Below are positions 37,722 through 42,759 of a stretch of DNA of 64,000 bases, one piece after another. The notes beneath the pieces were generated by a model, which saw nothing but the letters and a program-made list of their open reading frames with translations, had not been told where the DNA came from and did no database searches. How positions within the stretch are numbered: position 1 is the stretch's first letter; the number at the start of each line of letters is the position of its first letter. The stretch lies in contig VWVY01000001.1 of NCBI GenBank assembly GCA_009846685.1, forward strand, positions 558,001-622,000. The letters are read 5' to 3'. Origin of the DNA: Rhizobiales bacterium SYSU XM002. GTDB taxonomy: Bacteria; Pseudomonadota; Alphaproteobacteria; Rhizobiales; Beijerinckiaceae. The position numbers and the translations under genes were made by a program.

Positions 37722-38711
37722 TCAGGCGGCGAGCGCGCGCGCCGTATCGAGCCAGCCGTCGCGGCCCGCGCGGCCATTGAGCTTCAGCTCGGCGTCGAGC
37801 GCCGCGACATCCGCTTCCGACATGGCAGCGAGCTGCCAGAAGTGGAAGATGCCGTATTCGTTGAGCTTGGTCGCAAGCTGCGGGCCGACGCCGCCGAGCT
37901 TGGAGAGATCGTCCGGCGCGCCCTGCGGCGCGGAAAGACGCTTGAAACCCTCACCCGAAACGACCGGCAGTTCTTCAGAGGTCGGCGTCTCCATCGCACC
38001 GACATCGACACCAAGCGAGGACTGGCCGCGCGAGATACCGTCAATCGCGGCGCGGGCAACGAGTTCGCAATAGAGCGCGAGCGCACGGCCGGCATCGTCG
38101 TTCGCCGGGATCGGATAGGTCACGCCGTCCGGATCGCAGTTGGTATCGACGATCGCAACGACCGGGATGTTGAGGCGGTTCGCCTCCTGGATCGCGAGTG
38201 CTTCCTTATTGGTGTCGATCACGAACAGGAGGTCGGGCGTGCCGCCCATGTCCTTGATGCCGCCGAGCGCGCGCGTGAGCTTCTCCTGCTCGCGCGTGAG
38301 CATCAGGCGCTCTTTCTTGGTGAGGCCGACGGCGCCACCGGCCAGCGTCTCATCGACCTTGCGCAGGCGCTGGATCGAGTTCGAGATCGTCTTCCAGTTG
38401 GTCAGCATGCCGCCGAGCCAGCGCGAGTTCACAAAGTACTGCGCGGAAGACTTCGCGGCCTGTGCGATCGGATCCTGCGCCTGGCGCTTGGTGCCGACGA
38501 GTAGGATGCGGCCGCCGCGGGCCACGGTGTCCGAAATCGCCGCGAGCGCGCGATGCAGCATCGGCACGGTCTGGGCGAGATCGATGATGTGGATATTGTT
38601 GCGGGTGCCAAAGATGAACGGAGCCATCTTCGGGTTCCAGCGGTGGGACTGATGTCCGAAATGCGCACCAGCTTCGAGAAGCTGGCGCATCGAGAAGTCA
38701 GGAAGTGCCAT
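37722..38711 (-). CDS. rpsB: 30S ribosomal protein S2 with C-terminal H3TH-like extension
   Basis: S2 is an essential 30S protein. I start at 38711 (329 aa, '[15 protein letters not shown]') because GGAG is 9 nt upstream; the ATG two codons earlier is poorly spaced. Residues 1-235 are ordinary S2 ('[19 protein letters not shown]', '[14 protein letters not shown]'). Beyond this an acidic linker leads to a domain at about 266-329 with '[20 protein letters not shown]' and '[12 protein letters not shown]', a helix-hairpin-helix/H3TH-like module (the COG3743 type). The same module ends NuoE in this window. Similar S2 extensions are known in other Hyphomicrobiales, so this is lineage-typical rather than a fusion error. 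Confidence 0.97.
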
Positions 38712-38749
38712 CGTCATATTCTCCGGTTAGGCCGCCGCAGGGACAAAGA

Positions 38750-38859: not shown

Positions 38860-41800
38860 TCAATAAGGCTTCACATCGAGGATGCCCTTGACGCCTGCGA
38901 TCGCAGCCATCTGTTCGCTCCCGACATGGAAACGTCCAGGCAGGCGGATATCGACGTGGTGCCCATCCGACAGGGCTATATCGAACGAGACCTCGCCATC
39001 GCCGCCGCGGCGCAGCACCCGCTCCAACCCGCCGATCACCGGAGAAGCAGCATTCCCGACCATGCCCATCGAGGGTTCGGCGAGGAATATCCGGATTCCC
39101 TTCTGCGTTTTCTGCAAGGCGACTTCCAGCGCCTCCATTTCGAGGACGCGGATGCGCAGGTCTTCGCCATCGACCGAGCCCGCCACCACGACATGCAGCG
39201 CCGTACCCGGCTCAAGCAGCGCCCGATGCTTCACCAGCATCTCGGAGAACAGCATGGCCTCGAACTGACCGGTGCGGTCGGAGAGCGAGAGGATCGCGAT
39301 CTTGTTGCCGTTGCGCGTCCGACGGATGTCAACCGCCAACAGGGTCGCCGCGAGGCGCGCATGGCTCGCGCCATTGCGCACGGCCTGCTGAAAAGCCTGA
39401 AAGGTCGAGAGTTTCGCGCGCTCGATCAGTGCCGCGAACTGATCGAGCGGGTGGCCACTGAGGTAGAACCCGGCCGCAGCGTGTTCTCTCCGCAGTCGTT
39501 CCGGCAAGGTAAGCGGCGCAACGTCAGGCAGGACTAACATCCCGCCCGCTTCGCCGCCGAACAAACCACCCTGCCCGCTGGCGACCTCGGCGTCGTAGGC
39601 ATTGGCCTCCGCGATAATGGCATCGAGGCCAGCCACCAGCTTGCCTCGATTTGGTTCCAGGCAGTCGAGTGCGCCTGCGCCGACCAACTGCTCCAGCATC
39701 CGTTTGTTGAGGTGATGCGGATCAATCCGCCGGGCGAAATCGGAAAGCGAAGCGAAAGGTTTACCGCCGCGCGCCCGCACGATCGAGCGGGCCGCTTCCA
39801 TGCCGACGCCCTTTACCGCCGCAAGTGCGTAGAGAATGGCGCCGTTCCGGACATCGAACGTCGAATCGGACCGATTGACATCCGGTGGCTCGACGCGGAT
39901 GCCAAGCCGCTGCGCCTCGCGTCGGAATTCGCCGAGTTTGTCGGTGTTCGACAGTTCGAGGCTCATCGACGCGGCAAGAAACTCAACCGGGCGGTTCGCC
40001 TTGAGATAGGCCGTCTGGTAGGCGACAACAGCATAGGCGGCCGCATGGCTCTTGTTGAAGCCGTAATCGGCAAAGCGCGCCAGCAGGTCGAAGATCGCAT
40101 CGGCATCGGCGCTGGCGACGCCGTTTGCCACCGCGCCATCGACGAAGCGCGCACGCTGCGCATCCATCTCGGCCTTGATCTTCTTGCCCATCGCACGGCG
40201 CAGCATATCCGCCTCGCCCAGCGAATAGCCGGACATGACTTTGGCGATCTGCATCACCTGTTCCTGATAGACAATGACGCCGCAGGTCTCTTCCAGAATC
40301 GGCTTCAATAGCGGGTGGGCGTAATCCGCTTCCTTCCGGCCGTGCTTCACATCGCAATAGACCGGGATATTCGCCATGGGCCCGGGCCGGTAGAGCGCAA
40401 CCAGCGCGATGATATCCTCGATCCGGTCCGGTTTCATATCGACGAGCGCACGTCGCATGCCCCCCGATTCCACCTGGAACACGCCGACCGTCTCGCCGCG
40501 GGAGAGCATCGCATAACTCGCCGGATCGTCGAGCGGGATCTTGAGCAGATCGAGACTCACCCCCTGTCGCGAGAGAAGGTCCACCGCGCCCTGCAAAACC
40601 GTCAGTGTCTTGAGGCCAAGAAAGTCGAACTTCACCAGCCCCGCCGGCTCAACCCACTTCATGTTGAACTGGGTCACCGGCATATCCGACTTCGGATCGC
40701 GGTAGAGCGGCACCAACTGTTCGAGCGACCGGTCGCCGATCACGATACCCGCCGCGTGGGTCGAGGCGTGGCGGTAAAGCCCCTCCAACTTCTGCGCGAT
40801 ATCGAGCAACCGCGCGACCGCCTCGTTTTCCTCGGCGGCAGCCCGCAGTTGCGGTTCCTCCTCGATGGCTTTCGCCAGAGTAATGGGGTTCGCCGGATTC
40901 TGCGGCACGAGCTTGGTCAACCGGTCGACCTCGGAATAGCGCAGGCCAAGCACACGTCCGACATCGCGCAGAACGCCGCGCGCGAGCAGGGTGCCGAAGG
41001 TGATAATCTGCGCAACCCGCCCCTCGCCGTAGCGTCCAACAACGTAGCGGATCACCTCGTCACGCCGGTCCTGACAAAAATCGATATCGAAATCCGGCAT
41101 CGAGACGCGCTCCGGATTAAGAAATCGCTCGAAGAAAAGACCATAACGCAATGGGTCTAGATCAGTAATTGTCAGAGAATATGCTACAAGTGAACCAGCC
41201 CCCGAACCGCGTCCCGGCCCAACCGGAATGTCACGCGCCTTCGCCCACTTGATGAAGTCGGCAACGATGAGGAAGTACCCCGGGTATTGCATCCGCTCGA
41301 TCACCGAGAGCTCGAAGGCAAGCCGCTCCTCGTAATCGCTGACAGCCAGGCCGGGCGCCGGGCCATGCGCCGCCAGCCGCATTGCCAGCCCCTCTTCCGC
41401 TTGCCGTTTCAGTTCGGCCGCCTCGGCGTCATCGGCGGAAGCGGCCGTGAATCGCGGCAGGATCGGTTTGCGGGTCCGCGGCCGATAATGGCAGCGCCGC
41501 GCGATCTCGACTGTACTTGCGAGCGCCTGCGGCAGGTCGGCGAAAAGAGCTATCATCTCCTCACGTGTCTTGAAGCGATGCTCGGGCGTGAGACGCGGGC
41601 GTTGCGCCTCGTCGACCGAATACCCACCGGCGATGCAGAGGAGCGCATCATGCGCCTCGAAATCGCTCGCGGCACCGAAGTGGACGTTGTTCGCCGCGAC
41701 GAGCGGAAGCCCTGCCTCGACCGCGAGGTCGATCAGCATCGGCTCAAGTTTCTGTGCCTCCAGCAGACCGAAGCGTTCGATCTCGACATAAAGGCTACGC

Positions 41801-42318
41801 GGAAACAGGGTTTTCAGGATGTCGAGTCGCGCCCGCGCAAGGTCGATGCCACCCAGAGCAAATGCCTTGTCGATCGGGCCAATGCCACCGCCCGTCATCG
41901 CGATGAGACCGGCACTTCGCTCCCCGAGCACGGACAAGGGTAGATGCACACCTTCGGAAGCGGGCGAATCGAGGAAAGCGCGGCTCGAAAGCGCCATCAG
42001 ATTGGAATATCCCACCTCGCTCGCAGCCAGGAGAACGATGGAGCCGCGCGATTCAAGCGCCGAAGACGGCCGGTTGCGGACGACGGGACGATCCGCGAAA
42101 TCAAGAACCACCTCAATGCCGACAATCGGCTGGATACCGGAACCCGAGAGCTTTTCGGAGAACTCAAGCGCACCGAACAGATTGTTGGTGTCGGTAATCG
42201 CCAGCGCAGGCATCTGATCCTGCGCGGCGAGCTTGGCGAGCTTGGCAATGGGAAGCGCGCCCTGCAGTAGTGAAAAGGACGAATGCACATGCAGATGAAC
42301 GAAGCCCGGCCCCTTCAT
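38860..42318 (-). CDS. dnaE: DNA polymerase III alpha subunit
   Basis: DnaE (1152 aa) is the replicative polymerase. The start at 42318 has a GGGGAGG 7 nt upstream. The PHP domain opens with 'FVHLHVHSSFSLLQGA'; the catalytic aspartates are in 'SMPDFDIDFCQDRRDEV' (about residue 406) and 'LVKFDFLGLKTLT'; a clamp-binding QGGLF lies near residue 913; a C-terminal OB fold follows. Its length and the residues around the fingers fit DnaE1, not the shorter error-prone DnaE2/ImuC. It follows a 33-codon ORF by 26 nt, and a LexA-type operator lies in the shared promoter, so its expression is probably raised in the SOS response. Confidence 0.97.
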   Translation of the reverse strand: MKGPGFVHLHVHSSFSLLQGALPIAKLAKLAAQDQMPALAITDTNNLFGALEFSEKLSGSGIQPIVGIEVVLDFADRPVVRNRPSSALESRGSIVLLAASEVGYSNLMALSSRAFLDSPASEGVHLPLSVLGERSAGLIAMTGGGIGPIDKAFALGGIDLARARLDILKTLFPRSLYVEIERFGLLEAQKLEPMLIDLAVEAGLPLVAANNVHFGAASDFEAHDALLCIAGGYSVDEAQRPRLTPEHRFKTREEMIALFADLPQALASTVEIARRCHYRPRTRKPILPRFTAASADDAEAAELKRQAEEGLAMRLAAHGPAPGLAVSDYEERLAFELSVIERMQYPGYFLIVADFIKWAKARDIPVGPGRGSGAGSLVAYSLTITDLDPLRYGLFFERFLNPERVSMPDFDIDFCQDRRDEVIRYVVGRYGEGRVAQIITFGTLLARGVLRDVGRVLGLRYSEVDRLTKLVPQNPANPITLAKAIEEEPQLRAAAEENEAVARLLDIAQKLEGLYRHASTHAAGIVIGDRSLEQLVPLYRDPKSDMPVTQFNMKWVEPAGLVKFDFLGLKTLTVLQGAVDLLSRQGVSLDLLKIPLDDPASYAMLSRGETVGVFQVESGGMRRALVDMKPDRIEDIIALVALYRPGPMANIPVYCDVKHGRKEADYAHPLLKPILEETCGVIVYQEQVMQIAKVMSGYSLGEADMLRRAMGKKIKAEMDAQRARFVDGAVANGVASADADAIFDLLARFADYGFNKSHAAAYAVVAYQTAYLKANRPVEFLAASMSLELSNTDKLGEFRREAQRLGIRVEPPDVNRSDSTFDVRNGAILYALAAVKGVGMEAARSIVRARGGKPFASLSDFARRIDPHHLNKRMLEQLVGAGALDCLEPNRGKLVAGLDAIIAEANAYDAEVASGQGGLFGGEAGGMLVLPDVAPLTLPERLRREHAAAGFYLSGHPLDQFAALIERAKLSTFQAFQQAVRNGASHARLAATLLAVDIRRTRNGNKIAILSLSDRTGQFEAMLFSEMLVKHRALLEPGTALHVVVAGSVDGEDLRIRVLEMEALEVALQKTQKGIRIFLAEPSMGMVGNAASPVIGGLERVLRRGGDGEVSFDIALSDGHHVDIRLPGRFHVGSEQMAAIAGVKGILDVKPY

Positions 42319-42344: not shown

Positions 42345-42446
42345 TCAGATCAACGGCCAGTTGGTTCCCACACCGGCCCAGAACGTCATCATAGCGAAAA
42401 ACGCCGCAATCGAAGCCAGTTCGATCATGTCTTCCACAGCTCGCAT
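42345..42446 (-). CDS. Small membrane protein (33 aa), probable SOS-induced, upstream of dnaE
   Basis: A 33-codon ORF begins at the ATG at 42446, with GAGGAG at 42460-42455, 8 nt upstream, and ends with TGA at 42345, 26 nt before dnaE. The protein has a short charged start (MRAVEDMIE) and one hydrophobic helix at residues 8-27 including 'IAAFFAMMTFWAGVG', then TNWPLI. A perfect LexA-type repeat overlaps the -10 box of its promoter. I do not recognise the family. SOS-induced single-helix membrane proteins that halt division (such as Caulobacter SidA, 29 aa, acting on FtsW) offer a functional precedent, but no sequence relationship is claimed. Confidence 0.7.
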   Translation of the reverse strand: MRAVEDMIELASIAAFFAMMTFWAGVGTNWPLI

Positions 42447-42476
42447 CGTCGGAACTCCTCACGTTGGAACAATGAT

Positions 42477-42491
42477 GTTCTTGTTTTGTTC
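42477..42491 (-). promoter_or_regulatory. LexA operator (SOS box)
   Basis: Plus strand GTTC-TTGTTTT-GTTC (minus strand GAAC-N7-GAAC) matches exactly the direct-repeat LexA operator described for alphaproteobacteria. It lies 31 nt upstream of the small membrane ORF and overlaps the proposed -10 hexamer, so bound LexA would block RNA polymerase. Confidence 0.8.
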
Positions 42492-42515
42492 TATCATACT
42501 GGAGACCGTCGTCAA
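42488..42515 (-). promoter_or_regulatory. Promoter of the small membrane ORF-dnaE unit
   Basis: On the minus strand TTGACG (42515-42510) and TAGAAC (42493-42488) are separated by 16 nt. The -10 shares its last four bases with the LexA repeat. The expected transcript start is about 35 nt before the 33-codon ORF. Confidence 0.55.
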
Positions 42516-42534: not shown

Positions 42535-42759
42535 TCACGATTTGCAGCGCTCCTGCCAGCGGCGGAACGCGATCCCGGCCCAGATGAATTCGACAATGCC
42601 GAACGGCCAGGCACCCTGCAGAAAACCATAGACGGAGCCGGCGAGACAGGCAGCCGCGAAGCCGAGCACATAGTACGGATGACGGTTTTCGAGCGCGTAG
42701 GTCAGAAGCATGGCCAAGACAGCGGCGAGTCCGAAGAGCGTCAGGCCGTCGAAGGTCAA
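42535..42759 (-). CDS. Small three-helix membrane protein downstream of lolD
   Basis: Translation probably begins at the TTG at 42759, because GAGGGG sits 6 nt upstream (overlapping the lolD stop) and no ATG is in frame. The 74-aa product is hydrophobic with segments 'LFGLAAVLAMLLTYAL', 'YYVLGFAAACLAGSVYGFL' and 'PFGIVEFIWAGIAF', ending in a basic RRWQERCK. The pattern resembles the small CBU_0592-like membrane family, a tentative comparison. It is 10 nt after lolD and so in the lolC-lolD operon. Its function is unknown. Confidence 0.7.
   Translation of the reverse strand: MTFDGLTLFGLAAVLAMLLTYALENRHPYYVLGFAAACLAGSVYGFLQGAWPFGIVEFIWAGIAFRRWQERCKS

Follow-up and report, generated by a model that had tools for sequence, protein, structure and literature searches.

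The window, by which we denote the whole 64,000 nt stretch of DNA analysed, contains on its minus strand dnaE (38860..42318), encoding the alpha subunit of the replicative polymerase, preceded by a small open reading frame at 42345..42446, also on the minus strand, which comprises 33 aa plus a TGA stop (MRAVEDMIELASIAAFFAMMTFWAGVGTNWPLI). We assigned the ORF as sidA-like based on its sequence, its relatives, pN/pS values and homology to SidA. Its stop lies 26 nt before the dnaE ATG at 42318, and a Shine-Dalgarno (SD) sequence GAGGAG (42455..42460, minus strand) is situated 8 nt from its own ATG. A LexA operator, GAACAAAACAAGAAC (42477..42491, minus strand), which reads GTTC-N7-GTTC on the other strand, is located 30 nt before the same ATG and overlaps a candidate promoter (42488..42515, minus strand) with the putative elements TTGACG at 42515-42510 and TAGAAC, the likely -10, at 42493-42488. 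A similarly placed TTGAC was seen by eye in the alignment of four genomes of the same genus, and the aligned upstream regions of the window's family as a whole showed no consistent -35 element. AlphaFold2, run on the family alignment, predicted a single helix spanning residues 2-28 of the 33-mer (mean pLDDT 89.9), and searches of NCBIfam, Pfam and PHROGs with the 33-mer returned no match. The features that the preliminary description had read from the letters, namely an unrecognised ORF with a GAGGAG at good spacing, one clear (here predicted) helix and a LexA repeat over the promoter, directly upstream of dnaE, were therefore all recovered. An alternative dnaE model using an upstream GTG start (1200-aa frame) was rejected, given that the small ORF possesses a separate SD and shows a selection signal of its own.

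The preliminary description had suggested searching upstream of dnaE in related genomes and comparing codons, with a frame that is not conserved counting against the gene. The DnaE N-terminus was searched in 119 genomes of the window's family including its own, of which 114 matched, and the upstream region was read in 110 (G011, G052, G089 and G102 were left out; G011, read afterwards, has the ORF). Using an ORF profile built by iteration on those same dnaE-upstream regions, we detected a related ORF of 25-39 aa (median 32 aa) upstream of dnaE in 71 of the 110 genomes. At a profile E value below 0.01, 68 of the 110 had a match on the dnaE strand versus one on the other strand, the latter being the inverted copy of G099, while G001, G044 and G107, weak by score (E 0.5 to 4.3), were added by position, making 71. 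SD-like matches of at least 4 bases were found in 69 of the 71 relatives, a count that is not independent because start codons were chosen partly by SD, and the distance between the ORF and dnaE varied from 7 to 381 nt. The family helix is characterized by a nearly invariant E near its start and F in its middle, and by a W in most members. On the dnaE strand the ORF is absent at dnaE in 39 of the 110 genomes, and the family profile had no match anywhere at E 0.1 in 36 of the 119, at least four of which (G001, G044, G080, G107) carry the ORF by position. This implies that many lineages do without it. A direct search with the 33-mer in 60 family genomes gave matches at E 1 or better in 13 genomes, of which two were strong, those in its own genome and in one congener; among the 11 weaker best matches, 7 were situated just upstream of dnaE and one (G020) was an unlinked copy with a LexA box.

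In 22 hand-picked close pairs of equal length, pN/pS was 0.27 in frame versus 1.30 and 2.71 in the shifted frames, which implies that selection sees the peptide. The ratio was 0.35 when pooled over 60 family pairs and 0.48 within the window's genus, where single pairs gave dN/dS values of 0.23-0.61. The frame is thus conserved in 71 family genomes, and together with the features at the locus this confirms a real small gene that is conserved, carries a LexA operator and encodes a single hydrophobic helix.

In Caulobacter, SidA is described as an SOS-induced inner-membrane protein of 29 aa whose interaction partners are FtsW and FtsN and which is believed to keep the assembled divisome inactive (PMC4211646). 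It has been modelled on FtsW TM7 at low confidence, as have YneA, SosA and ChiZ (PMC13396833). sidA is CCNA_02004 (PMC10769358) and Caulobacter dnaE is CC1926 (PMC1839093). In the Caulobacteraceae, the family of Phenylobacterium sp. J426 (L328), 60 genomes were searched, 55 matched DnaE and 30 were read, and in all 30 loci a hydrophobic ORF of 29-31 aa was present upstream of dnaE. Concordantly, we take the numbers CCNA_02004 (sidA) and CC1926 (dnaE) to be those of neighbours. A perfect LexA box lay within 450 nt of dnaE in 20 of these 30 loci and a one-mismatch box within 230 nt in the other 10. All 28 distinct peptides of this set matched the NCBIfam model NF033228 (SidA) at E 1 or better, and 24 passed its 35-bit cut-off, the others reaching 33.0, 30.9, 24.6 and 13.8 bits, so the Caulobacteraceae family itself strays beyond the model. 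C. crescentus SidA was represented in our comparisons by the NCBIfam model, which has matches in C. vibrioides, and by the Phenylobacterium locus, not by its own sequence.

NF033228 gave no match to the window peptide at E 1, matched none of 61 peptides of the window's family and reached its cut-off in none of 240 genomes of the class; the window peptide lies outside the curated SidA equivalog. Profile-profile comparison (hhalign) of 61 family peptides with the 28 SidA peptides yielded a score of 91.3% (E 9e-7) over 31 columns, with a family profile (A2) that left out 8 of the 69 distinct peptides, mostly divergent or long ones. None of 300 column shuffles within the N-flank, helix and C-flank reached this score, the best shuffle giving 58%. 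With the Caulobacteraceae profile the window peptide scored 9.2 bits, a value attained by none of 200 block shuffles of its own sequence, and 36 of the 69 family peptides failed to beat 95% of their own shuffles. When this profile was run against 13,417 fragments (959,017 aa), the window peptide obtained 8.8 bits at an E value of about 1 and was outscored by one unrelated fragment; of the eight best matches after the Phenylobacterium peptide, seven, with the window peptide among them, were dnaE-upstream ORFs of this kind. These sequence comparisons all rest on about 30 residues of helix. Shared ancestry of the window peptide and SidA is well supported, as is the likeness of their regulatory layouts. 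The likeness to SidA pointed out in the preliminary description goes beyond analogy, since the peptide is by profile comparison a remote SidA homologue at the same genomic position.

Like SidA, the window ORF is LexA-controlled as judged from its operator, lies upstream of dnaE and encodes about 30 residues with one predicted helix, alignable with SidA over those 31 columns. It differs from SidA by an identity of 26%, a length of 33 versus 29 aa and being missed by the curated model, and its relatives, unlike SidA, can sit away from dnaE. DidA of Caulobacter is likewise a small membrane inhibitor of the FtsW/I/N complex acting after DNA damage, but it is SOS-independent and activated by DriD (PMC4211646). 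YneA, SosA and ChiZ, likened here by description, are DNA-damage-induced small membrane division inhibitors as well, but belong to other phyla and have another architecture, with a LysM domain in YneA and ChiZ (PMC13396833). Our literature search, covering the available texts without the original SidA paper, returned no account of SidA beyond Caulobacter. Ribosome profiling of S. meliloti detected a translated sORF25 in the dnaE1 5’-UTR, for which the accessible text reports no function and proposes neither a LexA nor a division role (PMC10117765). sORF25 (PMC10117765), whose translation was seen in a bacterium that we take as a relative, occupies the position of the window ORF; compared by position, it is probably the same gene.

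Altogether, these comparisons make it likely that the ORF is a divergent SidA orthologue, i.e. a LexA-repressed single-pass inner-membrane peptide that would block septation, a function carried over from SidA. In this model RecA would trigger LexA cleavage and free the operator over the peptide’s own promoter, upon which the peptide would be made in quantity and insert into the inner membrane, presumably with its N-terminus inside. There it would keep the machinery of septal wall synthesis (FtsW together with FtsI and FtsN) from working until LexA is restored. We infer induction, membrane location, the FtsW/FtsN target and division arrest for the window peptide by analogy with SidA. The peptide gene is probably the first in a transcript reading on into dnaE, and since dnaE is probably co-transcribed, SOS induction may also raise dnaE, apparently as a secondary effect.

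Alternatively, the ORF may encode a member of this SOS-induced membrane peptide family that has drifted from the SidA function to another job, such as lowering the membrane potential in the manner of TisB or targeting a different membrane partner. Both the large divergence from SidA, with the curated model missing the window peptide, and the many genomes without the ORF would fit such a change of function. On the other hand, the peptide shares homology and position with SidA, and the nearly invariant E and F and the W present in most relatives are not what a generic hydrophobic helix would show, so that we consider another job rather unlikely, although it is the most serious competitor of the SidA-type division inhibitor.

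The LexA box alone is not significant in the window, where 2 matches compare with 1.82 expected from shuffles (126 boxes versus 66 for the reversed control pattern in its own genome), and the claim consequently rests on conservation. In 65 of the 71 family genomes with the ORF at dnaE, a perfect box was located within 125 nt of the ORF start, most often at a distance of 25-40 nt, and the 65 aligned boxes have the common form GAACAAAA-N3-GAACAT. The remaining six ORFs lack a perfect box: five have one with a single mismatch no more than 70 nt away, and the contig of the sixth ends 22 nt upstream. As a control, among 195 slots of 70 nt taken from ORF-less family genomes, 2 contained a one-mismatch box. 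In equal 450-nt windows before dnaE, a box in ORF orientation was present in 62 of the 71 genomes with the ORF versus 1 of the 39 without it (Fisher p 9e-20), and a box in either orientation in 62 of 71 versus 5 of 39 (Fisher p 6e-15), with p values that overstate the association because related genomes are not independent and phylogeny was uncorrected. The five ORF-less genomes include G099, whose boxes serve its inverted copy, and the single one with a box in ORF orientation is G073. The control pattern CAAG-N7-CAAG was found before dnaE in none of the 110 family genomes. The occurrence of the LexA box follows that of the peptide rather than that of dnaE.

Perfect LexA boxes before dnaE without a recognised small ORF were observed in G073 and, in the order set described below, in G424 (L439). 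Either the ORF is too divergent for our filters in these genomes or dnaE alone is controlled there.

The family profile had a match at E 0.1 or better in 83 of the 119 genomes, the weakest of which may be due to chance, and 20 matched regions were read, 18 of them away from dnaE. An ORF with a perfect box unlinked to dnaE was identified in G118, G091, G020, G060, G034 and G072, and unlinked copies with one-mismatch boxes in four g16 genomes (G015, G112, G055, G087) and in G095, while seven further copies (L413-L419) had no box. G099 carries the unit in inverted orientation in front of dnaE, and its ORF start is preceded by perfect boxes at distances of 13 and 34 nt. Conservation of the ORF is thus not confined to a cis role at dnaE, and the retention of the LexA box by unlinked and inverted copies without dnaE points to a self-standing SOS gene. 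This weakens the earlier reading of the locus, in which coupling to dnaE was the point of the arrangement: the box tracks the peptide, and a perfect one has been retained by six unlinked copies and by the inverted one. The peptide gene would in this picture form an independent SOS unit for which linkage to dnaE is dispensable.

The same observations bear on a leader-peptide (uORF) reading, in which dnaE expression would be adjusted through translation of the ORF and its product would be inert. That the ORF occupies the dnaE leader and ends 26 nt short of dnaE would suit this role, and the S. meliloti authors suggested that some 5’-UTR sORFs may be uORFs and named sORF25 before dnaE1 as noteworthy (PMC10117765). 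Selection nevertheless acts at the amino-acid level, the spacing to dnaE varies over the range given above, and no box in ORF orientation is present in 38 of the 39 ORF-less genomes. A cis leader would moreover not relocate or invert together with its LexA box, as the six unlinked copies and the inverted one have done; the leader-peptide reading was rejected on these grounds as very improbable. That the box regulates dnaE and the ORF is merely a chance open frame, as the statistically unremarkable box in the window and the boxes without a recognised ORF in G073 and G424 might suggest, was likewise rejected, its residual likelihood being minimal in view of the frame and helix conserved across 71 genomes, the pN/pS control and the box that accompanies the ORF where it has moved.

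To follow the SidA-type peptide beyond the window's family, 101 genomes of the order were drawn, of which 99 matched and 47 outside this family were read. A perfect box before dnaE was present in 24 of the 47, and in 23 of these 24 a single-helix ORF with an SD was located within 90 nt behind the box, compared with any such ORF within 450 nt in 4 of the 23 genomes without a box. The ORFs of G491, G450 and G512 matched both the family and the Caulobacteraceae profiles (E 6e-4 or better each). A bridge profile was built from 23 order peptides, comprising 20 of the 23 box-bearing ones and those of G434, G479 and G497. It scored the window peptide at 26.4 bits, which none of 200 shuffles reached, and with it 26 of the 28 SidA peptides and 64 of the 69 family peptides beat 95% of their own shuffles. 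NF033228, run on six bridge peptides, gave 13.2 bits for one of them against its cut-off of 35. As judged by these profiles, other families of the order bridge the window's family and SidA.

Among other families of the class, 240 genomes were searched, 218 had a dnaE match and 87 were read. The family profile detected no ORF at E 0.01 in these 87 genomes, while a box before dnaE was found in 13 of them, all 13 with a small helix ORF and an SD, compared with such an ORF in 3 of the 74 boxless genomes. Concordantly, in 80 loci of the GTDB collection, all 16 with a box had such an ORF versus none of the 64 without; L251, counted among these 16, and G122 from the class set are one and the same contig. 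Position combined with the LexA box is thus more sensitive across the class than the family profile. By these filters, the GTDB loci named as Rhodobacterales, Azospirillum and Nitrospirillum had neither box nor ORF.

In L251-L263, metagenome-assembled genomes mostly titled Alphaproteobacteria bacterium, a box and a single-helix ORF of the WxKDAxAG type were observed before dnaE in 13 of 13 loci. Their peptides are barely alignable, with a profile similarity of 7% to SidA and 1% to the family peptides; in the reverse comparison with the family peptides, none of 150 shuffles reached the score.

We tentatively propose, with distinctly less confidence than for the SidA-type role of the window peptide itself, that SidA, rather than being peculiar to Caulobacter, may be one branch of an old, fast-evolving family that accompanies dnaE and is governed by LexA throughout the Alphaproteobacteria, which would be the general SOS division inhibitor of this class, would have been relocated repeatedly with its operator, and from which SidA-like peptides would have entered prophage regulatory regions. 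If the assignment of the window peptide is true, an SOS division inhibitor would be named for the window's family and related families, the LexA box that many of these bacteria have before the gene of their replicative polymerase would be explained, and an orphan sORF known to be translated in a model symbiont would acquire a function. Dozens of natural SidA variants would also become available to map the way in which a peptide of one helix silences FtsW. More generally, position plus operator can reveal peptides that are too short and fast-evolving for sequence search alone.

Boxless second SidA-like copies were noted in L413 (G115), L414 (G090) and L419 (G052), and less clear ones in L415, L417 and L418. 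L413 adjoins a Ner-type HTH_35 repressor, L414 a phage-type deoxynucleotide phosphatase and L419 an S24/CI-like repressor fragment, and the neighbour of L418 has HD domain matches, all below cut-off. Searches of a phage and a plasmid collection, each with one SidA-like peptide, gave no match. It is possible that SidA-type division inhibitors are carried by phages and, if SidA-like peptides do reside in prophage regulatory regions, they could block host division.

Upstream of dnaE in G508 (L444), a possible second, inverted SidA-like ORF was seen on the opposite strand, with an E value of about 0.2 with either profile. In the window itself, a hydrophobic ORF of about 70 aa (42535-42747, minus strand), which has no family match over cut-off, is located between lolD and the sidA-like promoter, and rpsB (37722-38717, minus strand) carries a C-terminal extension that by eye resembles a helix-hairpin-helix domain.
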